A stretch of DNA of 64,000 nucleotides, taken from assembly GCA_017527865.1 (NCBI GenBank), contig JAFXPN010000038.1:1-64000 (forward strand). The letters run 5' to 3'. The notes beneath the pieces were generated by a model. It searched no databases and was not told the DNA's origin. It worked only from the letters and a program-made list of their open reading frames with translations. A program made the translations under genes and the position numbers. This DNA is from Clostridiales bacterium (GTDB lineage: Bacteria; Bacillota; Clostridia; Saccharofermentanales; Saccharofermentanaceae). Shown here piece after piece: positions 47,902 through 60,016 of the stretch (position 1 is its first letter; the number at the start of each line of letters is the position of its first letter).

Positions 47902-47930
47902 ATTGTACTGTTAAGACGTCCTGATGGCAA
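47902..47930 (-). promoter_or_regulatory. nudC promoter, leaderless arrangement
   Basis: TTGCCA (47930-47925), 17-bp spacer, TACAAT (47907-47902) on the minus strand. Exactly six bases follow before the ATG at 47895. The -35 box and most of the spacer lie in the last codons of the sortase gene. Confidence 0.7.
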
Positions 47931-48651
47931 CGACAATTCTTCTTCCGTCAACGTGAGTGTATTCGCATGTCACGAGCAGAAGATACTGATTGCCCGGAGA
48001 AACAGGTTCATGTGTCTTTACGACACCGTACTCTGTGATCTGACTTAAGAATTCTGTCTCGGTCTGTTCATCAGGAAAATTGCTCCATCCGAAAAAAGTG
48101 TATTCACCGCCGTCCACAGCAACATCAAGAACCGAGATGACTTTATAAGTCCTGCATCCGTCCACTGTATCAAAATGAATCAACCCATTATCATTAAAGA
48201 AATCCTCATCCTCAAATCTCATTAGATCGGCAAACATAGTTCCGTTCCTGTTATTATGCGCAAACACTTCGAGAACGTCATCTGACAGATCAGAAGATCT
48301 TCTTATAAACGGGCAGCCGCTGCTGTCGCTTTCTCCCATATAGTTATGACTGAGATAGTAATAGTATCCTGTGGCATCTGTCCGGTCTCTCATGACCGGA
48401 TAGTGTATTGACGTTCCTTCAACACTTATATAACCGACATAGTCCACATACTCATTTGCAAGATTTATCAGCTCCTCATTAACTGACGTATCATCCAAAC
48501 CGCCTGCAATGCTTACATTTTTATATTCTCTCTTATACAGTTCTTTTGAATACAGCCCGTCAGGTCCGCCGTTCTTATCGAGCATAAAAAAGAACATCGA
48601 TATACCGAACAAAATCCCTTCACAAGCCGCAAGAATTATGGCTTTATGCAT
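47911..48651 (-). CDS. srtB: Class B sortase
   Basis: A 246-residue membrane transpeptidase. The N-terminal anchor is at about 3-22, and the sortase barrel follows. Catalytic residues are His132 in VFAHNNRNGTMF, Cys229 in LLVTCEYTHVDGRR, and an Arg in the GRRIVVAIR strand. VDYVGYISVEGTSIHYPVMR is the typical class B N-terminal strand set. Its location directly after the giant VPQTG-bearing protein suggests it anchors or polymerises that substrate. The start at 48651 is chosen because AAGGAGG precedes it; longer in-frame starts are rejected. Confidence 0.93.
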   Translation of the reverse strand: MHKAIILAACEGILFGISMFFFMLDKNGGPDGLYSKELYKREYKNVSIAGGLDDTSVNEELINLANEYVDYVGYISVEGTSIHYPVMRDRTDATGYYYYLSHNYMGESDSSGCPFIRRSSDLSDDVLEVFAHNNRNGTMFADLMRFEDEDFFNDNGLIHFDTVDGCRTYKVISVLDVAVDGGEYTFFGWSNFPDEQTETEFLSQITEYGVVKTHEPVSPGNQYLLLVTCEYTHVDGRRIVVAIRTS

Positions 48652-48729
48652 ATAATGCCTCCTTAATCGCAGTATACAAAGTCGAAAAGCAGATTTTGAT
48701 ATAATCCGCTCCGTCCCCAAACTGATAGA

Positions 48730-48757
48730 GGGCTGTCTCTTTATTTTGAGACAGCCC
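48730..48757 (-). terminator. Hairpin between the adhesin and sortase genes
   Basis: A perfect 10-bp stem, GGGCTGTCTC and GAGACAGCCC, with an eight-base loop, starting seven bases past the adhesin stop. No T run follows on either strand, so it may be a weak terminator, a processing site or a 3' end stabiliser. The sortase may depend on read-through or on a TATACT box at 48676-48671. Confidence 0.55.
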
Positions 48758-48763
48758 CGGATA

Positions 48764-51700
48764 TCAGCGTTTCCTTTTGCCCGGAATGAAAACAACAGCT
48801 CCTGCCAGACTGAAACAAAGAGCGAGTATCAAAAGTGCTGCATTGCGATATGAAGGATCATAGTCATTTCCGGTCTGAGGCACAAAAGTTATTGTCTGAG
48901 ACCATTCGTTCCAATCTTCGTGTGACTTTATCAACACACCTGTCCTATTGTCATATACCCGTTCAAATATTACGAGTTTTTCCCCTGTATATCCGCTGCC
49001 GTCAAAGCACAAAGAGATATCGATACTTCCGTCGGAGCAGACCGGGGAAAAGACAGTTGAACAGTGGGCATCTGATTCACCTGTCGCAAGATTCATAAGA
49101 TCCGTCTCCATCCTATACTCACAGCCTGCAGTAAGCCCCTCATAGAAGACCGTATCGATCACGGTTACTTCGTTTGATGTCGCAACCGACCTGCTGCCAT
49201 CGACTCCGTGAGCCGATGACCGAAGATCACTCACTGTCAGTGTCTGATCCTCATCATTTATGTCAGCATGGATACTTACAAGCACTCCGGGAGCTGTATA
49301 CATCTCCTCGAACGCAATAATCTTATTGTAATGGCGTGCCACTATATCGCCGGCATCAACTGTAAATGTCAGTTCGACATAACCGCTGCTCTCCGCAGGC
49401 GTGAAAGTAATCTCGGCCTTTACTTCCTGTCCGTTCTGAACAAGGGTTCCGGACTCGATCACATTTCCATCAGCATCTGTCACGCCATACTGCAAGTTAC
49501 CGACGATCGTGTAAGATGTTCCGGGAACAAGGTTCTCATAGTAAACACGGTCTGTTACTGTTACAAGGTCGGCACCCTCAGGAAGAGTGCTGCCCGTCTC
49601 GGTATATGCAGTAGTATGCAGATCAGGCATATAGACTGTCTGCTGTACATCGGAAAGATCACAGTGATTTGCAACACAGATACCGCTGTTCGCATGGAAA
49701 AGCTTCTCTGTTACTATCAGGTAGTCATAGTGCATATCTGCAAGTCTTATACTGTCGATCGTAAATACAACCTCTGCATATCCGCTTCTGCCGGTTGCCG
49801 TGAACGGCGCGGATGTTACCAAACCGCCTTCATCTGCCGGGATAGCCCTTGAATGAAGATTTCCGTTCTCATCTGTCCAGCAGGCCCAAAGCTGGCCTTG
49901 GATAAAGTAGCTGTCTCCAGCTTCGACGTTAGACCACCAAACATTATCGACGATCCTTGCATTCTCCATAAGAGGAAGAACGGTCCGTCCCATCGCGCCG
50001 GGTGTCGTATCTGCCGAGAATGCACTTGTATGCACCTCAGGTACAAATACCGTCTGGTCGTAGTTGTTCATACCGTATCCGCCGTTAACATCAGCATAGT
50101 TCTCGTGTGTAACGATACAAATGCCGTTAAACCACAATTCCTCGAACACGATAATGTCGCGTCCTGCGTACCTTGTGGTATCAAGCTTGTAGTCAAAGAC
50201 CACATCGCCTTCGTGTGTCTCAGGCGTAAAGGTATATTCAAGTTCTGTCACTTCACCTGATCTTGCGTGAATCAACCCGCCGTCAACAGGGTTTCCGTTC
50301 TCATCGTAATCAATAAGATGCAAAGATCCTCTTATCGTGTACTCCACGGGACCTAAGCCTCTGTAGTGAACGATGTCACGGACGGTCGTAAGACCTGCCT
50401 CAAGAGTGCTTACGGAAGTCTGCAGGTCGGCTGCGCCGGAACAAATATCACCCAAGGTAATCGTCTGTCCTTCATCATTGATATCCGCATGGATCTCAAA
50501 TTCGAATCCGGACTCGGATGTTATCGTCTCGAATGAAACGATCGCTCTCGGTGCAGTTATCTCAACACCGTTAATCGTCTGTCCTATCTGACTGATGATA
50601 TAAAGCGTATTGACGTGGTACACAACATCCACTGTTCCGTCAGAAGTTGTCGGAGTAAATGTCGTGGATGCCGTGAAAGGCTGGCCGTTTCTGTCAAGAA
50701 CAGGTTCACCTGTCTGCTTGTCCATAATGATGCCCGTCACGGTGTACTCTTCGCCGATATGAAGATTATGGTAAGAAACAGTATCGATAAACTCGACATC
50801 CTCACCTATCAGACCATACTGACTGCGAGTGACCGGATCGATCATCTGTGTTCCGATCTCGGGATGAAGATGGATAGTCTGACCTTCGTCCGTCACATCC
50901 TCGTGCTTGGCAAGCATTACCTCACCAACTCCCGTGTTTTCCGTGTCAAGCTGCCACAACTGTTCGAAGCATACTATATCGGCATCGTAAGAACCGTTAC
51001 ATACCCAAGACGTATCAACGATAAAGTGTACATCCACCGTGCCGTTTCTCGACTCAGGTACGAATTCCTGTTCTGCCGTAGTATATACGATCGAAGGATT
51101 CTGTCTGTTTACGATCCTTCCTCTCATCACATAAGTCTCACCGGGATTAAGGTTAGTATAGCTTACCGTATCGGTAAACGGAACCGCAGAACCCAGGCGG
51201 CCGTCGTGTGTACCGGTCTGATCGTCAACGATAGTCGTTCCGATGACAGGTATTTCAGGTGTAACAGACTGAGGAAGGTCGTCGATCTCGGTATGTCCGC
51301 CGATAAGGATACCTTCTTCCGTTCTCAGATACTCGAATGCAACAAGCGTTCTCTCTTCATACCGGAATATATTAACCAGCAGATCCGATGTATCTATAGT
51401 AAAGATGACATCGACCGTACCGCTTGCAGCAGGAGCAACGAATGTTTTAGTAGCAACCACAGGATCGCCGTTGGAATAGGCAAGTCTCTTGCCCGTTGTC
51501 TGATCGTACAGATGGCAGGTAAGCGTATAGGTCTCGCCTACATGAAGATTTGTATAAGAAACTGTATCTCTTACCTGAACGATACGACCTGCAACCGTCT
51601 GATGTTCTTCCGTAACACGGTCAACAAAGGTTGTTCCGATATCCGGAGGAGTGATGTTGATCGTCTGACCTTCATCAGTGATATCCGTATGTCCACCGAT

Positions 51701-54700
51701 AAGGACCTCGCTTGCAGAGTACAGATACTCATAGCAAACGATATCCTTTGTCACCGTCATTACGATCTGCTCAACAGAGCGACCGTCCGGACCGTAGTAA
51801 AGCTCATTGTACAAAGATGCCTCTATAATGGAAGCTGTACTGATGGTTATCGGCACTTCGACCGTACCGTCTTCCGTCTGAGGAACAAAGCTTATCCTGC
51901 CCGTAAACGGATTTCCGTCCGTATCGCAGAGGATCAAACCCGTACCCTTGTCATAGACATGAGCTTCCAGGAAATAAGTCTCACCGACGTGCAGGTTCTC
52001 ATAAGTAACAGTATCGATGAACTCAACCGTATCACCTACTGCGGCATTTGACCTGATCTCCTGTACGCTTGTAAGCGTTGTACCGACTTCGGGTGAACCT
52101 AATGTGACAGTCTGGCCTGCATCATCGAGGTCTTCGTGTGTTGCAACAGGACCGTCATCGTACCACTGATGGTAAGGTGTCTTGTCATCCGTTGCCGTGA
52201 AAGAAAGACTCTCAAAACATACGATATCTCTTGAAACATACTCGATAACACCATTTGCATCAACCGTGACCTCGATTATGGCAGCCGTATCTATTACAAA
52301 ACTGACCTGTACCGCGCCATTGGGTGTATCAGGTGTAAATGTCACACTCGAAGTGTACGCATTGCCATCCGCATCGAGCAAGGGTTCACCCGTCTTCAAC
52401 ATTATCGTTCCGGTAACGATATATTCCTCACCCGGAACAAGATTTGTGTAAGCAACGGTATCGACAAACTCGACCGTCTCACCTATATGTCCGATGTGGT
52501 CCAAAGACAACGCATCGACCAAGGTTGTTCCGATAGCAGGAGCAAGGTTATAGACTGTGCTTTCGTAATTGTCGATCACAAAGTCAGGAGCAGACGTATC
52601 TTTTCCGACTATGGTGAAAGCAACTTCGTTTCTGTTAAGGGTAGGAACCCCATTCTCATCAACGAAGAAGTAACCCTCAGGCAAACCTGTCTCGACTACC
52701 ACATACTTACCCGATCTTAACGGATCTGATACATAGCAGCCTTCTGCCTCATCCCAAACAATCTGTGCATCAACGAGTTCGCCGTTCTTAAATGTCTTGG
52801 CGACTGTATCAACGCCCTCGTCAAATACGCCGTTGCCGTTCACATCGCTGTAAACGGTAAATCCTGCATTCCTTATAGCCTCGTTTGTGTCACCGTCAAG
52901 CTTGTGTATCTTTATCGGTGCCGTATAAGGCGTTTCTTCTACATCCGCTTCATCTGCAGACGTGAACTGTCTTGCAGGAAGAACGATCGGGAACACATTA
53001 GGATTCACATAGAAATCGAACGGTGCCGTTGTCTCTCTTACGAGATAGTGTGTGTAGTAGTTCATCGTGCCGTTCATGACATCATCGGCAATCTCAGGGA
53101 ACTCTTCAGCAAGAACCTGAGATGTCAGGACAAAGTGATAGGTTAATATACCGTCTCTGTCCGTATCAGCCAAGGTTGCGATAAGCTTATCTGCATCCTC
53201 TTCGATGACACCGTTGGCATTGACATCACACCACAGCTCGAATGTTGCATTGTAGCCTCCCTCATATCCTGCAAGGATCTCGGAAGTCCACTCATCACGC
53301 TTATTGATCGTGAAATCGTGCGTGATATAAGGTCTCTCTGTCACGTTTGCCGATACAGATGCGGAATACAATCCGCCTGTAAGAGTCATGGGCGTGACAG
53401 TCGTATTGAGGTAATAACCCGTCGAAGGGGAAACCTCAGCAACAAGGTACTTTGTAGGATAGTTCTTTGCCGAAGTACCAGTAATGGTACCGTCAACATT
53501 GATACACTCGGGGAAATGAGCCTGAATCGTAGCTCTGTCCAAAGTGTAGTTCCAGGTAGCAACACCATTGGCGTTGGTTGTTGAATTACCAAGAAGTCTG
53601 TCAACATCTGCTTCAAGAGTACCGTTCTGGTTCACATCAACATACAACGCATAGACAGCACCGCGAACTCTTGCACCTGTGTTCTCATCCTTCTTGACCA
53701 CTTCAAAAGCGAGTTCGACCTTGTGTTCCTCTAACATTGTGGAAGAAACTTCCATTGTTATCGTTCCCGTGCCTATCGTTGCAGAAGATGAATCCACAAT
53801 GATCGTTACAGGAGTCTCGTTAATGTAGTAGTCATCAGGGGCAACCTCTTCTTTTACAAACAGCCTTGCCGTAAAGCTCAACGGATCGGAAGGATCCACA
53901 AGGGCCGTCAAAGCCTGTACAGAAGCATTAGTGCTGTTGGGATTAAGCCGATAAGACCAGCTCATCACACCGTCACGATCTGTATCCGTCGTTCTTGCAA
54001 GCCTTGTGTCATTTGCATCAAGAGAGCCGTTGTTGTTCGTATCGAGATACAGACTGAACACTGCCTGCGTACCGGTATAAGTACCAATAGGCCTGTTTGT
54101 TTCAGAATCAACCTTGGTGAGATTGATATTGAGAGTTATATACGGATAGTTGTTCATATAAAGTGTTGCAACACCCGTACCGCCGGCAGGAACAGTCATA
54201 CCGTGTGCCGACGTATCACGATAGTATCCGTTAGGCGCAGTTTCCTCTCTGACGAGAAGATGCACCGCACTTGTGGAACTCAGTCCGTAAGCCGAATACC
54301 TGAGATCCGAGAAATGGATAACTCCATCCTTCGTACCGTCTGCCATATCTGCCAATGTTCCGATCAGGGTATCGGCAGAGTCGATCCTGCCGTTGTTGTT
54401 CCTGTCTATATAAAGAGAACAGGAGAACGTGCCGGAATAATTAGTAAGGGCTGCATTTGTTGTATAGTCCCTCTTATACACCTCGGCACTGAATGTCCTT
54501 TCCCTGTTTTCGCATACAACGGATAAAGGAACATGACGGTTATCCTCGGTTACAGTAACGTACCTGTAGAAGTATTCATATACGCCGTTGCCGTCAGCAT
54601 CTCTTCCGAGCCATCCGTTAGGAACCTCAAAGTTATTGGAAGCAGGAAGGATCTCACGAACCTCATATTTACCATAAGGCAAATGACCTAAAACATCTGC

Positions 54701-57700
54701 GCCGGTCCTTTGAACGGGATGGAAATCTCCCGTCACCGGATCAGCAGTATTCAGAACTGTACCCTCTCCCATACCTACTATGCCGAAAGGAATCCAATTC
54801 TTATTCTCGTCCCAGTTGTCCCAGTTGTCGTTATCCGTTCCGTCTGCCGTTGTAAGATAAGATCTGATATAGGCGATCTGTTCGGCTGTAAGTTCCGGGT
54901 AAGTATCAAACAGGTTAAAACCAAGCCTCTGTGACGCAACGGTTCCCCAATGACCATGAGCGCCGTCCCAACCTGCCGTACAACTATATACAACACCCCA
55001 CTCGCGCAAACGTATCCTATAATCCCAGTTAACATCGTAAGTGCGTCTTGTGTATGTGTTGGTTCCGTCAACTACTCGCTCTTCTTCGGAAGGAGTATTA
55101 CTCAAAACACCTGTTGCGTAAGTAATGGCTCCGTTCTCACTTCTGACCTCAAAACTGATTCCATCAACCCCGGCGCCAAACTCATCAACCTTGACAACAT
55201 CAAGCTCACCATAGGAGATGTTATTGTCAATATAATCGTAATAGTAGTTTTCCCACCATTGAGTTGAACCTGATGAAGTATCCAAAGAAAGCGGATATAC
55301 ATGATCGAGTGTACGAGGATCGCAAAGATATGTCACGCCCTCTGAATCAACATGGAATACGGCATAGAACTCATGCGCTCCGTCGCCGTTTGCCCGTCCG
55401 GTTTCAATCCAATACGGACTCGCGTTTTCAGTCTGCAACATAATATTGTTTGCATTTCCTGTAAGTTCGCCTTCGTACCAAGACTCAGTAACGATGAAAT
55501 AACTGTCCAGGAGCAATCCGGTAACATGAGATGTCTGATCCTGCCCGTCACGTCCTAAAACGTGCCATCCGGTACTTGTACCGTTGTTACCATAATAATG
55601 ATAGTATTCAGGCTCGTGTCCCCTGAAATCAGTCAAGGGTGTAGTAGGTTGCCAATAGACAGCAGCCTCAGTTCCTGAGCCATATGCAGGCTTGATATCA
55701 CCTGTCATAATGGCCGATGCAGAAATGACATTCTGATCGCCGTCAGCCCATCGCTGAGCATACTCGCGGCTCCAGTTACCGCCGTACAAACTGAACGATA
55801 CACGTCTTACAGAATTAAAGAAACTGTATGCCTCAGACGGATCGCCTTCCCATCTCTTGATAAGGCCAAGTGAACCCCAGCCGCTGTCCGAATTACCGTT
55901 AGAAAGAGTGAATGTTGCCGTTCCGGAAGCAAACGCCCATTTATCTGCACCTGCGCCTCCGTTTGTACTCCATGTTACAGGAGTCCCGTTTGCATCTGTC
56001 GTAAACGACGCGGTCGCTTCTACACGCTCATACGCTGCAGAAGGCGCAGATACTTCACTGAAGGTGTATGTACTATTAGGCAAAAGACCTTCGATCTCTG
56101 CTGTACTGGTGGTTGTTGTAAACGTAACAGTATTTCCGCTAAGTGTATACTCGTTATTCTGTGTTCCATTAATATTAAATGCACCGGCATCAAATCCGGG
56201 ACCACTCAACGAGATAACACAACCTGCAAGTCCGGCGCCTGTTGTTGCATCGACTTTTTGAATGAAGACATGACCGGATTGAGGCTGAGACGAAGTGATC
56301 CGTCCCTCATACACTTGCGTCTGGGATGTTTCTTTCCATGAAACTGTTACTGTACCTGTAGCATTACCGCCGTTATAAGAAGGTGTCGAAACACCGAAAT
56401 TTATAACACCGCCGAATTCTTCACAAAATCTTGTATATTCGCCCGCTGCATCCTTTACGGCTGCAACGATCGCACTTCTTACATTAGCGGCACCCTGCTG
56501 CAATGAAACATAACGGGTAACGGTTCCTACCGTAACTGTCGCATTGGAGCCTGCACCGCTCGTGCTGACAGACCATCTCTGTGATCTGCTCTGTGAATTC
56601 CACGAGGGTTGTGAAATATCTGCCCTGTCACTGATCTGGATCGTCCAGATTCCGTTACTGTATGTTGCAATATAGTACTTTGTACCCGAAGACAAAGATG
56701 AAGCATGGAACGACGCATTACCCGGATGGAAGTGCCTTGAACATACCATCGTTATTGATGTATGTCCTGCGGCATTGAGCCATTGACCGAGAACCCCGCT
56801 GAAATCAGAAGCCGTTCCCCCGCCTGCGGCAGAGGCTCTGTTAAAAGCACAGGTTCCTGTTTCACTGAAACCCTCTGCCACAGGATAATTGACAGTGCCG
56901 ACATCAGTAATGGCATCGGATGTACTCCAAGAAGCAGGATTAACAGAACCGTCAATGGTTTCATCCATTACCCACCGGAACCATACTTCACCATTATCAT
57001 CGATCTCGACAACAACGACACCGTAACCGTATTCTGCCTGAAGCTCCTCAGTAAGTGTTTGTGCTGTTTCATACGCCCAGGCGTAGTCATCGGCCACATA
57101 ATCGTCATCTTCTTCTACCTGATAGAACAGTCTGTCAGTATCAAAAACACCCGTTGTGTACATACCGGTATATCTGGCAGTAGCCTCAGATGAAGATGTT
57201 GCAACCACATAATAGTCTGCATTATAGTTTGAAGTTGTGTACTTCGTACCATCCATATCAGCAGCACCGACAGTGATCACGCCATCGATACAGCCGGGTA
57301 TGAATGCTCTTGTCGAGATATTGTTGTTACCGGCAGCTCCGATGACTACAATACCAGCATCAAGAGCTTCCTGAATAATGTCCCTGATTATGGCATTCTT
57401 CTCAATGTTAAGAGCCGTCATCGAGAAATTGATAACTGATACATTAAGATCGATGGCTACACGGAATCCTGCATAGATATCGGCAGCACTCGCCTTACCG
57501 TCATCGGAAACCTTTATAGACAAAACTCTGGCATACGGATTCTCCTCACGGATAAACCCAAGCATATCAGAACCATGTCCGTTATAATCCGATGTATCAT
57601 CACCCAATACGGAATAATTGATATTGGCATTAGCCCCTGTATCAATGAGTGCAGCATATCCGTTAAAACTGAAGTTTGCAGTATCGATATCATTAAGGTT

Positions 57701-58873
57701 AGCGATAGCATCGTTACCGTTATTGATATCAGACATATCCGCTACATCCTGCTCTTCAGGTTCATTCTCATACTCATCCGCAGGAACAGGCGGTACTGTT
57801 GTTTCGTCATCTTCCGTGACCGGTATGTCTTCAACAAGATCGCGTATTTCTTCACCTGAAACCATTTCCTCATCCGGAATACTGCGGGTTTCCTCTATGA
57901 GAGGTTCATCTTCATTCTCATCACCGGCTGCAACAGTCGCCGCATCTGACAGATCAGTGATGTAACCAACCTTATCGACATAATATGAATATGCATATCT
58001 TGCTGTCTCTACGGAATCAAATGCTATGATATACACATCATCATAATTAGACAAAACCGTTGTTGATCTTGTAAATATCTCCGGATTAGATGTCTGTACA
58101 AAGAGTTCCTGTGTGTTAATCACAGACTCATCTATTTCCGAGTAATAGTGATCAAACTCCACATACTCTATCGGAACAGGTGTAGGAGTCGGTGTAGCAG
58201 TCGGAGTCGCTGTCGGAGTAACAGTAGGAGTTACTGTATCCGTAGGAACAACCGTAGGCGTAGCCTCGGGTTCCTCTTCATCTGGAACAGGAGTTGCTGT
58301 AGGAGTAACCTCTGTTTCGTCTGTTCCGTCATCTTCAGGAACAGGTGTAGCAGTAGGTGTAACTTCTGTCTCTTCCGAAGCATCAGTCTCCTCGGTTTCT
58401 TCCGTAACTTCAGTCTCCTCGGTTTCTTCCGTAACTTCAGCTTCTTCAGTCTCTTCGGTTCCTTCCGTGGTTTCAGAAGAAACAACCGAAGGAATTGACT
58501 CTGATTCTTCTGTTGATTCCGTCCCGCTTGTTTCTTCTCCCGCTTCATTTATCTCATCATTTACGTCAGCTTCTTCTGTTACACCGGGGTCATCATCAGC
58601 TACGTCACTTTCTTCCTGCAGTTCTGAATCTTCCGTTATAAATACATCAGATCCGCCTTCGTTGTCTCCCGGATCCGTCGCCTCATTTACCTGATCATCT
58701 GTTTCTATCGTATCTGCTGAAAGATTGCCTGCATTATTCGTCTTCCCGTCCTCAGGAGGAATAACGAAGACAGAAAACAAAACTGCTGCGGCAAGAACAC
58801 AAGAAAGCGCCCTGACCCTGTACCTGCCCAGGATCTTCAGCAAATAAACATCTTTGTTCAAGGTGCTTTTCAT
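48764..58873 (-). CDS. Giant cell wall-anchored VaFE/SpaA-type adhesin with subtilase-like domain
   Basis: A 3369-residue surface protein. Signal peptide about 18-40. Thr/Glu- and Thr/Pro-rich stalk about 45-235. Propeptide-like strand region about 255-310. Subtilase-like domain about 400-580 with Asp411 (LIDTG), His433 (NGHGSDM) and Asn516 (AAGNNN) but no GTSMAxP serine motif; YTGMYTTG (568-575) sits there. A Ser/Gly-rich beta region and SpaA/Cna_B-like modules follow to about 1450. Five modules with DxNxNG loops lie near 1490, 1610, 1750, 1885 and 2010. Nine VaFE T-Q ester modules span about 2110-3325. Sorting signal VPQTG (3331-3335), hydrophobic helix and KRKR tail end it. The start has GGAGG and overlaps the DUF5688 stop by four bases. 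It is likely a long, self-crosslinked fibre for adhesion. Confidence 0.92.
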   Translation of the reverse strand: MKSTLNKDVYLLKILGRYRVRALSCVLAAAVLFSVFVIPPEDGKTNNAGNLSADTIETDDQVNEATDPGDNEGGSDVFITEDSELQEESDVADDDPGVTEEADVNDEINEAGEETSGTESTEESESIPSVVSSETTEGTEETEEAEVTEETEETEVTEETEETDASEETEVTPTATPVPEDDGTDETEVTPTATPVPDEEEPEATPTVVPTDTVTPTVTPTATPTATPTPTPVPIEYVEFDHYYSEIDESVINTQELFVQTSNPEIFTRSTTVLSNYDDVYIIAFDSVETARYAYSYYVDKVGYITDLSDAATVAAGDENEDEPLIEETRSIPDEEMVSGEEIRDLVEDIPVTEDDETTVPPVPADEYENEPEEQDVADMSDINNGNDAIANLNDIDTANFSFNGYAALIDTGANANINYSVLGDDTSDYNGHGSDMLGFIREENPYARVLSIKVSDDGKASAADIYAGFRVAIDLNVSVINFSMTALNIEKNAIIRDIIQEALDAGIVVIGAAGNNNISTRAFIPGCIDGVITVGAADMDGTKYTTSNYNADYYVVATSSSEATARYTGMYTTGVFDTDRLFYQVEEDDDYVADDYAWAYETAQTLTEELQAEYGYGVVVVEIDDNGEVWFRWVMDETIDGSVNPASWSTSDAITDVGTVNYPVAEGFSETGTCAFNRASAAGGGTASDFSGVLGQWLNAAGHTSITMVCSRHFHPGNASFHASSLSSGTKYYIATYSNGIWTIQISDRADISQPSWNSQSRSQRWSVSTSGAGSNATVTVGTVTRYVSLQQGAANVRSAIVAAVKDAAGEYTRFCEEFGGVINFGVSTPSYNGGNATGTVTVSWKETSQTQVYEGRITSSQPQSGHVFIQKVDATTGAGLAGCVISLSGPGFDAGAFNINGTQNNEYTLSGNTVTFTTTTSTAEIEGLLPNSTYTFSEVSAPSAAYERVEATASFTTDANGTPVTWSTNGGAGADKWAFASGTATFTLSNGNSDSGWGSLGLIKRWEGDPSEAYSFFNSVRRVSFSLYGGNWSREYAQRWADGDQNVISASAIMTGDIKPAYGSGTEAAVYWQPTTPLTDFRGHEPEYYHYYGNNGTSTGWHVLGRDGQDQTSHVTGLLLDSYFIVTESWYEGELTGNANNIMLQTENASPYWIETGRANGDGAHEFYAVFHVDSEGVTYLCDPRTLDHVYPLSLDTSSGSTQWWENYYYDYIDNNISYGELDVVKVDEFGAGVDGISFEVRSENGAITYATGVLSNTPSEEERVVDGTNTYTRRTYDVNWDYRIRLREWGVVYSCTAGWDGAHGHWGTVASQRLGFNLFDTYPELTAEQIAYIRSYLTTADGTDNDNWDNWDENKNWIPFGIVGMGEGTVLNTADPVTGDFHPVQRTGADVLGHLPYGKYEVREILPASNNFEVPNGWLGRDADGNGVYEYFYRYVTVTEDNRHVPLSVVCENRERTFSAEVYKRDYTTNAALTNYSGTFSCSLYIDRNNNGRIDSADTLIGTLADMADGTKDGVIHFSDLRYSAYGLSSTSAVHLLVREETAPNGYYRDTSAHGMTVPAGGTGVATLYMNNYPYITLNINLTKVDSETNRPIGTYTGTQAVFSLYLDTNNNGSLDANDTRLARTTDTDRDGVMSWSYRLNPNSTNASVQALTALVDPSDPLSFTARLFVKEEVAPDDYYINETPVTIIVDSSSATIGTGTITMEVSSTMLEEHKVELAFEVVKKDENTGARVRGAVYALYVDVNQNGTLEADVDRLLGNSTTNANGVATWNYTLDRATIQAHFPECINVDGTITGTSAKNYPTKYLVAEVSPSTGYYLNTTVTPMTLTGGLYSASVSANVTERPYITHDFTINKRDEWTSEILAGYEGGYNATFELWCDVNANGVIEEDADKLIATLADTDRDGILTYHFVLTSQVLAEEFPEIADDVMNGTMNYYTHYLVRETTAPFDFYVNPNVFPIVLPARQFTSADEADVEETPYTAPIKIHKLDGDTNEAIRNAGFTVYSDVNGNGVFDEGVDTVAKTFKNGELVDAQIVWDEAEGCYVSDPLRSGKYVVVETGLPEGYFFVDENGVPTLNRNEVAFTIVGKDTSAPDFVIDNYESTVYNLAPAIGTTLVDALSLDHIGHIGETVEFVDTVAYTNLVPGEEYIVTGTIMLKTGEPLLDADGNAYTSSVTFTPDTPNGAVQVSFVIDTAAIIEVTVDANGVIEYVSRDIVCFESLSFTATDDKTPYHQWYDDGPVATHEDLDDAGQTVTLGSPEVGTTLTSVQEIRSNAAVGDTVEFIDTVTYENLHVGETYFLEAHVYDKGTGLILCDTDGNPFTGRISFVPQTEDGTVEVPITISTASIIEASLYNELYYGPDGRSVEQIVMTVTKDIVCYEYLYSASEVLIGGHTDITDEGQTINITPPDIGTTFVDRVTEEHQTVAGRIVQVRDTVSYTNLHVGETYTLTCHLYDQTTGKRLAYSNGDPVVATKTFVAPAASGTVDVIFTIDTSDLLVNIFRYEERTLVAFEYLRTEEGILIGGHTEIDDLPQSVTPEIPVIGTTIVDDQTGTHDGRLGSAVPFTDTVSYTNLNPGETYVMRGRIVNRQNPSIVYTTAEQEFVPESRNGTVDVHFIVDTSWVCNGSYDADIVCFEQLWQLDTENTGVGEVMLAKHEDVTDEGQTIHLHPEIGTQMIDPVTRSQYGLIGEDVEFIDTVSYHNLHIGEEYTVTGIIMDKQTGEPVLDRNGQPFTASTTFTPTTSDGTVDVVYHVNTLYIISQIGQTINGVEITAPRAIVSFETITSESGFEFEIHADINDEGQTITLGDICSGAADLQTSVSTLEAGLTTVRDIVHYRGLGPVEYTIRGSLHLIDYDENGNPVDGGLIHARSGEVTELEYTFTPETHEGDVVFDYKLDTTRYAGRDIIVFEELWFNGICIVTHENYADVNGGYGMNNYDQTVFVPEVHTSAFSADTTPGAMGRTVLPLMENARIVDNVWWSNVEAGDSYFIQGQLWACWTDENGNLHSRAIPADEGGLVTSAPFTATGRSGYAEVVFTIDSIRLADMHYDYLIVTEKLFHANSGICVANHCDLSDVQQTVYMPDLHTTAYTETGSTLPEGADLVTVTDRVYYENLVPGTSYTIVGNLQYGVTDADGNVIESGTLVQNGQEVKAEITFTPAESSGYVELTFTVDAGDIVARHYNKIIAFEEMYTAPGVLVSIHADINDEDQTLTVSDLRSSAHGVDGSRSVATSNEVTVIDTVFYEGLTAGCEYRMETDLMNLATGESDAHCSTVFSPVCSDGSIDISLCFDGSGYTGEKLVIFERVYDNRTGVLIKSHEDWNEWSQTITFVPQTGNDYDPSYRNAALLILALCFSLAGAVVFIPGKRKR
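58384..58437 (-). repeat. 27-bp tandem repeat in the adhesin stalk
   Basis: Two exact 27-bp units (58384-58410, 58411-58437) encode EVTEETEET twice. Degenerate copies continue on both sides, and about 100 bases away ETEVTPTATPVP occurs twice. The region is prone to slippage and so to stalk length change. Confidence 0.8.
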
Positions 58874-59826
58874 GCTATCTTTTCCTCCATATTGAAAACA
58901 CTGATCATGAAGTTATCCGCATCGCAAAAATACAAAGACGAAGACAGCATCTGCTCTCCATCAGACAGATAACACTCATTTGATTCCCTTAACATCTCTA
59001 TAAGACATTCCGGCGGAATTCCCGATACAACCGGGACTATAAGGCATTCATTAACCGAAGTCGGAACAATAAAATAATCCGATTCAGCCTTTAACGCTAT
59101 CTTTTCTCTTACCTCTTCGAAAATGATGCCGGAACTGGCTCTGAATCCGCTCTTATTGGTAAGCATGTAAACACGTTTTTCAGGATCTGTTTTTCCTATC
59201 GTCTTTCTGATCTGAGCTTCACTTTGACCGTTTTTTCTCAATACCGATCTGACGACTGAATCAAAAGATTTTATCTTCGGTGACAACAGTCTGCATGTAT
59301 TTTTCATCGCGGAACTGTACAGTTCTTCCTCATCAAGACCGGTCATATCCATCAGCCTGTTATCGATAATACTGCTGTAAACACCGGTATCATCAGATGT
59401 TATGACCCAGCGGTAGATGATGCACAGATCCAGGAAAGGTCTGTGAGGAACATCATTTATATATATTGAAGCCGTTCCGGGATTAACCAGTTCCGCCACT
59501 ACATTCTTTTTGACCGCATCCAGATTCAATCCGGATGATATACTCCTGCCCTTGATCAAAGCCTTCTTCATTGAATCGGCAACATTACAGAGTTCGACCA
59601 TGATATCCCGGCTGCTCTGATAAGACTTATAGATATCTTCAAAATAATAAGTCGGCTGCACAGTCGGTGCTTTAACGGAGTTTTTTGGCGAGAAAGTGAA
59701 TCCGTCAAGGGTTTTCCCACGTTTGACAACAGGCATGGTCTTAACTTCGTACCCTTCAAACTCTTCTCCCATGACATCCGGAAAAAGGTCACAAAACGTT
59801 TCTTTAAGTTCTTCGTAAGTCAGCAT
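58870..59826 (-). CDS. DUF5688 family protein
   Basis: A 318-residue cytoplasmic protein with no signal peptide or membrane segment. It matches DUF5688 in outline: MLTYEELKETF, VVKRGKTLDGFTF, QPTYYFEDIYKSYQ, VYMLTNKSGFRASSGIIF and YFIVPTSVNECLIVPV. The family is widespread in gut Lachnospiraceae and relatives, and its function is unknown. The start at 59826 is chosen for GGAGGT upstream; earlier in-frame starts at 59841 and 59865 would lie in or near the leader hairpin. Its stop overlaps the adhesin start (ATGA), so the two are translationally coupled. A regulatory or export-assisting role is conceivable but unproven. Confidence 0.8.
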   Translation of the reverse strand: MLTYEELKETFCDLFPDVMGEEFEGYEVKTMPVVKRGKTLDGFTFSPKNSVKAPTVQPTYYFEDIYKSYQSSRDIMVELCNVADSMKKALIKGRSISSGLNLDAVKKNVVAELVNPGTASIYINDVPHRPFLDLCIIYRWVITSDDTGVYSSIIDNRLMDMTGLDEEELYSSAMKNTCRLLSPKIKSFDSVVRSVLRKNGQSEAQIRKTIGKTDPEKRVYMLTNKSGFRASSGIIFEEVREKIALKAESDYFIVPTSVNECLIVPVVSGIPPECLIEMLRESNECYLSDGEQMLSSSLYFCDADNFMISVFNMEEKIA

Positions 59827-59855
59827 ATCTCTTACCTCCATGTATTTTGGGCATG

Positions 59856-59882
59856 AAAAAAGCACCGCTTCGCGCGGTGCTT
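59856..59882 (-). terminator. Intrinsic terminator in the DUF5688-adhesin leader
   Basis: A perfect 9-bp stem AAGCACCGC/GCGGTGCTT with a five-base loop, followed by TTTT on the minus strand. It ends only about 30 bases before the DUF5688 ATG. It may end the prkC-rsgA-rpe transcript, or act as an attenuator for the surface operon, since no promoter fits between it and the gene. Confidence 0.75.
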
Positions 59883-59903
59883 ATGTCATACCTTGATGAG
59901 TAT

Positions 59904-59932
59904 ATGCTAATCTACAGCGTATGGATTTTCAA
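59904..59932 (-). promoter_or_regulatory. Candidate promoter of the DUF5688-adhesin operon
   Basis: TTGAAA (59932-59927), 17-bp spacer, TAGCAT (59909-59904) on the minus strand. Transcription would start near 59897, ahead of the terminator hairpin, giving a leader of about 70 bases. A two-codon frame (ATG ACA TAA, 59889-59881) precedes the hairpin. The rest of 59933-60016 shows no further clear signal. Confidence 0.4.
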
Positions 59933-60016
59933 TATCAAATAATTCCCGTTTTCAAGTTCTAATAATAGTACACTTCAGGCAGGAACATCAGTGTTTACGG
60001 GCACTTTCTGGATTTG

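Follow-up and report, generated by a model that had tools for sequence, protein, structure and literature searches.

Co-inheritance of a DUF5688 gene with a giant VaFE-repeat surface protein behind a conserved, terminator-like leader

AlpA was reported to bind inside its promoter, after which RNA polymerase bypasses a terminator located directly upstream of the first gene (PMC7969949), and LoaP, a paralogue of NusG, was described as an antitermination factor acting at a leader terminator that gates a costly operon (PMC12691694). For cwpV of C. difficile, control of a large surface protein was proposed to lie in a leader terminator that DNA inversion makes or breaks (PMC2784873). VaFE/TQ adhesins such as Cpe0147 of C. 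perfringens are described as secreted proteins with a stalk of TQ and SpaA domains and a sortase signal (PMC12679949), and SrtB of C. difficile is a class B sortase that was reported to cleave (S/P)PXTG motifs (PMC4155245).

We analyzed a stretch of 64,000 nt from a Clostridiales genome (the window), in which the minus strand carries, in this order, genes for a PASTA-domain kinase, RsgA, ribulose-phosphate 3-epimerase (RPE), a DUF5688 protein, a giant secreted protein, a sortase and a NudC-type hydrolase (Table 1). The best start of DUF5688 is the ATG at 59826, which is preceded by GGAGGT; a longer start at GTG 59865 is unlikely. The stop of DUF5688 overlaps the ATG of the giant as ATGA, and the ATG of the sortase (48651) follows the giant after exactly 112 nt, so that the coupled pair and the class B(-like) sortase downstream, both proposed in the preliminary description, were confirmed on the window sequence. 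The genome of the window (assembly 94.5% complete) contains one DUF5688 gene, one TQ/VaFE protein and one detected sortase, and since each of the three is single, their adjacency is not a matter of chance. An Rfam scan of the window gave a single match, a tRNA.

Table 1 Features of the DUF5688-giant locus, with coordinates in the window.
Feature	Coordinates	Strand	Basis
SigmaA-like promoter (predicted)	59904..59932	-	TTGAAA-17-TAGCAT, consensus scan
Second, overlapping promoter match (predicted)	59909-59938	-	TTGATA-18-TAGATT, consensus scan
Leader hairpin and T-run	59860..59882	-	Predicted intrinsic terminator, 34 nt upstream of DUF5688 start
DUF5688 protein, 318 aa, predicted cytosolic, pI 4.9	58870..59826	-	PF18941, 184.5 bits; AlphaFold2
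Giant secreted wall-anchored protein, 3369 aa	48764..58873	-	Profile matches and sequence features
Subtilase (S8) domain of giant, residues 408-584	57122..57652	-	PF00082, BPN' match, alignment
Nine TQ/VaFE (ester-bond) repeats of giant	48944..52564	-	PF18202 / NF033903
VPQTG sorting motif of giant	48869..48883	-	Hydrophobic segment and basic tail after motif
Class-B-like sortase, 246 aa	47911..48651	-	PF04203; class B sortase structures; TIGR03064

Profile searches found nine TQ/VaFE repeats and three SpaA stretches in the giant (PF18202, 521.9 bits against a cut-off of 23.8; NF033903, nine stretches with 623.7 bits against a cut-off of 24). Its N terminus is signal-peptide-like and is followed by an acidic linker, an S8 domain, the stalk of SpaA and TQ/VaFE domains and a sorting signal, in which VPQTG at residue 3331 precedes a hydrophobic segment and then KRKR. 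The TQ repeats are expected to form Thr-Gln ester bonds. When the first 600 residues were searched, PF00082 matched residues 416-560 (E 1.3e-11, 44.8 bits against a cut-off of 21.8); it was not listed when the whole 3369-aa protein was scanned at E 1. The domain matched subtilisin BPN' (E 9e-9), with D411, H433, N516 and S562 aligned to the catalytic Asp/His/Asn/Ser set. In an alignment of 17 S8 domains this set was kept in all 16 full-length ones, and the Asn and Ser were kept in a partial one (L093). The window giant carries an intact-looking subtilisin-type domain that goes beyond a plain adhesin stalk. The preliminary description had recognized a giant VaFE protein, and its repeats stood up to profile search, but the subtilase domain had been overlooked, as had the promoter-like sequence and the terminator-like hairpin of the leader. 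The heads varied among 54 giant N termini from the chromosomal site (the window and 53 relatives), where Pfam identified NlpC/P60 in 15, S8 in 12, TED in seven and TED_2 in six; the window giant had no TED match in its first 600 residues or, at E 1, over its full length. Compared with Cpe0147, with which it shares secretion, the sortase signal and the TQ and SpaA stalk (PMC12679949), the window protein differs in its size of 3369 aa, subtilase head, DUF5688 neighbor and guarded leader, its ester bonds being predicted.

The sortase matched PF04203 (27.2 bits against a cut-off of 26.6), its best PDB matches were class B sortases (best E 1e-18), and H132, C229 and R237/R238 are present at the expected positions. 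Its score against the TIGR03064 equivalog, 102.7 bits, lies below the cut-off of 153.75, and we therefore name it class-B-like only, which separates it from SrtB of C. difficile. VPQTG had earlier been taken as an odd signal for a class B sortase, a view that was not borne out, since SrtB is reported to cleave xPxTG-type signals of the form (S/P)PXTG (PMC4155245), among which VPQTG is ordinary. A sortase gene comes next after the giant at many loci of the chromosomal site, not at all of them, and all five such genes tested matched PF04203.

Within the genus, 56 of 59 genomes, including that of the window, contained DUF5688, as did 80 of 85 in a larger genus draw; none of 40 genomes from other families of the order had it. 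Two named records of the genus that bear no metagenome-assembly label, Ruminococcaceae bacterium AB4001 and YAD3003, have the locus as well. We read 89 genus loci (84 and 4, plus the window), and 53 of them lay at the RPE/TPK or NudC/aminotransferase site, in 52 Saccharofermentans-type genomes; two were cut at DUF5688, which left 51 assessable loci. In all 51, a large exported protein was encoded by the first or second gene after DUF5688, and 47 of these proteins contained a TQ repeat or an LPxTG-type motif, the four unmarked ones being truncated or split (L088, L090, L109 and L120). None of seven readable RPE-TPK sites that lacked DUF5688 (L165, L167, L169-L173) had a TQ/LPxTG giant, and at L169, L170 and L171 another exported protein came next. 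Genome G018 was considered as a case of a giant without DUF5688; its giant is cut at a contig end and the genes downstream match the site, so that it is no counter-example. These observations make the association of giant and DUF5688 at this locus well supported from sequence, although the site loci share descent and the counts and p-values overstate their independence.

The coupling of the two starts was common but not fixed as the preliminary description had it. Among 54 pairs, a scripted tally found seven ATGA junctions and one -1 overlap, about a dozen more had a GTGA junction on reading of the rows, and in six of the 51 assessable loci a gene was interposed (three transposase-like, three glutamate-rich secreted). 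The transposase-like genes, so named from their sequence, stand between DUF5688 and the giant in L073, L080 and L081, where a second terminator-like hairpin lies directly before the giant. The glutamate-rich secreted proteins, of about 200 aa, occupy the same position in L097, L108 and L109, the loci most closely related to that of the window, and the one tested had no Pfam match.

A GC-rich hairpin with a T-run ending at most 45 nt before DUF5688 was found in 52 of 55 leaders at these loci, which places a predicted terminator between promoter and first gene as in AlpA-type and Q-type systems, compared with 18 of 131 matched genes from the same loci; these controls depend on an in-house ORF caller and on a simple rule for calling hairpins, and some of the 18 are giants themselves. 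For the leader of the window, the computed folding energy was -22.7 kcal/mol (z -6.0). Across 50 leaders, 8 of 10 stem pairs showed compensatory changes, and the hairpin had a single orientation at 53 of 55 loci. The stem lies 27-54 nt from the start codon, and conserved promoter-like sequence is found between TPK and the hairpin, in many relatives as a TTGAAT-17-TATACT-like element 16-22 nt upstream of it. In the window the promoter scan gave two matches against 0.8 expected by shuffling, a slight excess, and a promoter score of at least 9 of 12 was reached in 29 of 53 leaders against about nine expected from shuffles, an excess that holds for the group only. A search of 20 genomes for an exact 14-mer of the promoter, TATTGAATGAGACT, gave 14 occurrences, all but one of them (13) at this leader. 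In the main clade, two TGAGAC-type copies 20 bp apart overlap the -35 element; in the subgroup of the window they are degenerate. The conservation of the leader, as judged from sequence, is well supported. The leader terminator was found at none of 29 DUF5688 genes located elsewhere in the genus, and outside the genus 6 of 34 DUF5688 leaders had one against 6 of 98 controls, a weak excess (p 0.076).

Sequence searches identified the window protein as DUF5688 well above the gathering cut-off of PF18941 (34.5 bits), and a single AlphaFold2 model had a mean pLDDT of 93 and a pTM of 0.85. The protein is acidic, as in the giant-linked set as a whole (median pI 5.2). The model had no relative of known function and no confident match to a nucleic-acid-binding fold: none of 353 Foldseek matches in the PDB and none of 616 in a viral structure search reached E 0.001, and the best VIA match (Z 4.5) was not meaningful. 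A DUF5688 profile gave one match among the sequences of solved structures, which at E 0.018 is not credible, and the window protein had no match in PHROGs or PADLOC. A resemblance to DUF1444 was unsupported, as in a Pfam scan of 50 members only DUF5688 was consistent. With tblastn, the window DUF5688 matched two plasmid and five phage records, all at less than 25% identity. Our literature search covered two topics, and found no paper naming DUF5688 and none combining VaFE, sortase and rumen.

DUF5688 genes also occur on mobile elements of the genus. Several of them are immediately preceded by genes for a VaFE giant, a sortase and a small wHTH-like protein, and genes for a primase-like protein and a relaxase of the MobA type come next. 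Nine VaFE giants in the genus were read without an adjacent DUF5688. A draw of 391 genomes at class level contained 34 with DUF5688, and none of 36 class-level loci tested outside the genus had an LPxTG neighbor. A different picture emerged from named relatives outside the genus, of which the 45 nearest were taken and 43 were assessable: on conjugative elements, 30 of the 43 had an LPxTG protein within 650 nt upstream of DUF5688, a count that does not represent 30 independent events, since elements spread, and that may come from one or a few element lineages. The one partner examined combined TED, 13 SpaA domains and an anchor, and the order in Lachnospiraceae elements is a TED-SpaA-LPQTG giant, DUF5688, RadC, Toprim, MobC and relaxase. 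The view that DUF5688 outside the genus never adjoins surface proteins was thus overturned for the nearest relatives, and the contrast between 30 of 43 and 0 of 36 assigns the giant link to one DUF5688 lineage, not to the whole family. The neighborhood survey that the preliminary description had named beforehand accordingly came out in favor of a tendency to adjoin giant sortase-anchored proteins within this lineage (51 of 51 at the site, 30 of 43 on elements), but not family-wide.

In a quick version of the DUF5688 tree, from which sequences shorter than 255 aa or with stops had been removed, the VaFE-linked genes formed one group of 49 rows (SH-aLRT 88). Four more genes from this chromosomal site formed a second set on a long branch, which may reflect either a second recruitment or fast divergence. 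The divergence of DUF5688 tracked that of the neighboring RPE (rho 0.81), and, given RPE, it also tracked the giant's last TQ repeat (partial correlation 0.35, a value reached in 0 of 500 permutations).

In Lachnospiraceae elements, a terminator-like hairpin was found before the giant itself in 21 of 27 cases. Among distinct element leaders with a gap of at least 40 nt it was present in 13 of 16, against 17 of 159 other genes (p 3e-9). The interval separating this hairpin from the upstream lipoprotein-like gene hardly accommodates a promoter, so that the hairpin may act within an operon. Three of eight other giants of the genus had such a hairpin. In many element hairpins (L248-L286), before giants and before DUF5688, an apical GCCAA...CTT seems common while the stems differ, and it is possibly a protein-binding RNA motif.

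We tentatively read the locus as an attenuator-gated surface-display operon in which DUF5688 is the cytosolic partner of the giant, and rate this reading a little short of even. Gene order, co-inheritance, domain content and the conserved leader with its compensatory changes are seen in the sequence itself. Transcription would begin at the sigmaA-like promoter, located after the RsgA-RPE genes and ahead of DUF5688, and RNA polymerase would run into the intrinsic terminator before the transcript exceeds some 30-50 nt. With a terminator so close to the start and behind a promoter, the cassette would be transcribed by read-through, only such transcripts reaching DUF5688, the giant and the sortase, and the costly giant is probably made only when the leader stop is overridden. 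DUF5688, first and translationally coupled, would remain in the cytosol and serve the giant, most likely by keeping the nascent, self-cross-linking chain of beta repeats, thousands of residues long, unfolded or by pacing its export, so that the TQ and SpaA domains would bond only outside the cell. The sortase would then use VPQTG to attach the giant to the wall, and a subtilisin-like head, elsewhere NlpC/P60 or thioester, would be displayed on a cross-linked stalk. We infer termination at the hairpin and an agent that overrides it, as well as the function of DUF5688 as a holdase and the pairing of sortase and substrate. Counting against this explanation, DUF5688 is widespread without such partners, VaFE giants occur without an adjacent DUF5688, and fold searches gave no relative of known function.

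DUF5688 may act either as an export holdase or as a regulator; the preliminary description had suggested a chaperone or secretion control, which may hold, and the leader terminator adds a regulatory reading to it. A cytosolic holdase or secretion pacer is favored, because the partners are all very long chains of domains expected to cross-link on folding, while heads and sortases vary. As the main rival, DUF5688 may regulate its own operon, it or a partner at the locus-specific promoter letting polymerase pass the terminator in response to a signal. Its leading position in the operon, after a leader terminator that hardly varies, the promoter motif almost unique to this leader and the TGAGAC-type copies over the -35 in the main clade all point this way, and AlpA, as described, provides a precedent for a promoter-bound protein that allows bypass of a terminator upstream of the first gene (PMC7969949). 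The likeness to AlpA and lambda Q, a terminator between a promoter with a special element and the first gene (PMC7969949), is one of predicted arrangement and not of membership. An acidic protein with no confident nucleic-acid-binding fold match, degenerate repeats in the subgroup of the window itself, and elements in which the hairpin precedes the giant and DUF5688 follows it leave the regulator rather unlikely. LoaP was considered as the overriding factor and was not supported, since G007, G001, G017, G049 and G053, which are 98-100% complete and all have the site, each gave a single NusG-domain match, and the DUF5688 leader is too short for a separate recognition hairpin. The window genome encodes two NusG-domain proteins (G000:C20:18634-18978 and G000:C27:15984-16265), one of them a likely paralogue, and several relatives have a weaker NusG match some 25-45 kb from the DUF5688 locus.

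It is less likely still that DUF5688 is a hitchhiker, the cassette having come from a conjugative element in which DUF5688 performs an element-type job unrelated to the giant. The giant-sortase-wHTH-DUF5688-primase-relaxase modules of the genus, the Lachnospiraceae elements and the many DUF5688 genes located elsewhere would suit such an origin; yet at the chromosomal site the order is reversed and the pair is nevertheless kept in 51 of 51 loci and jointly absent from seven, and DUF5688 shows partial co-divergence with the giant. That the hairpin is a shifted terminator of the upstream RsgA-RPE-TPK operon, with the cassette living on leaky, unregulated read-through, we regard as improbable: some sites without DUF5688 do have hairpins directly after TPK, and 18 of 131 control genes have a terminator as close, but promoter-like sequence is conserved upstream of the hairpin, after TPK, and with 27-54 nt from stem to start there is little space for another promoter. 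A phase-variable switch of the cwpV kind, with inversion making or breaking the terminator, shares the logic of promoter, leader terminator and large surface protein (PMC2784873) and is nonetheless highly improbable, given the one hairpin orientation at nearly all loci and the lack of a long, cwpV-like inverted-repeat pair around the leader segment of the window, where the best pair is the hairpin itself. A further inverted pair in the window (18 nt, 78%) straddles the 3' part of the leader's upstream neighborhood at the end of RPE.

To our knowledge, how proteins that bond covalently on folding are exported without jamming the secretion channel is an open question. On a wider and rather doubtful reading, one DUF5688 lineage would be a dedicated cytosolic partner of giant self-cross-linking proteins on chromosomes and conjugative elements alike, guarded in both settings by a terminator immediately ahead of the operon or of the giant, as a general two-part safety system. 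If true, its parts would be gated transcription and then a holdase or secretion pacer for covalently self-locking domains. If a conserved gene for a cytosolic protein is linked to such proteins both in rumen bacteria and on gut conjugative elements, this would be a first lead to a role of DUF5688, and the guarded leader permits a direct reporter test.

Several further observations were made at individual loci. In L091, L146 and L183, DUF5688 precedes an apparent beta-glucosidase, a DJ-1-like protein and a thioredoxin, respectively, judged by sequence or gene size. The Clostridiales-3 sRNA (RF02942) was found near the starts of conjugative element segments (L265:94-361, L258:8-273 and L253:175-429). 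A 3'-end frameshift of the giant in L057, L061 and L064 was considered and rejected, as the frame instead runs past the IPKTG signal, antisense over the aminotransferase. In eight genomes (L052, L057-L059 and L061-L064), the frame of the giant appears to continue in this way beyond the sorting signal over the 3' end of the converging aminotransferase gene, giving a long basic tail with no sortase next; three of these eight were inspected closely.
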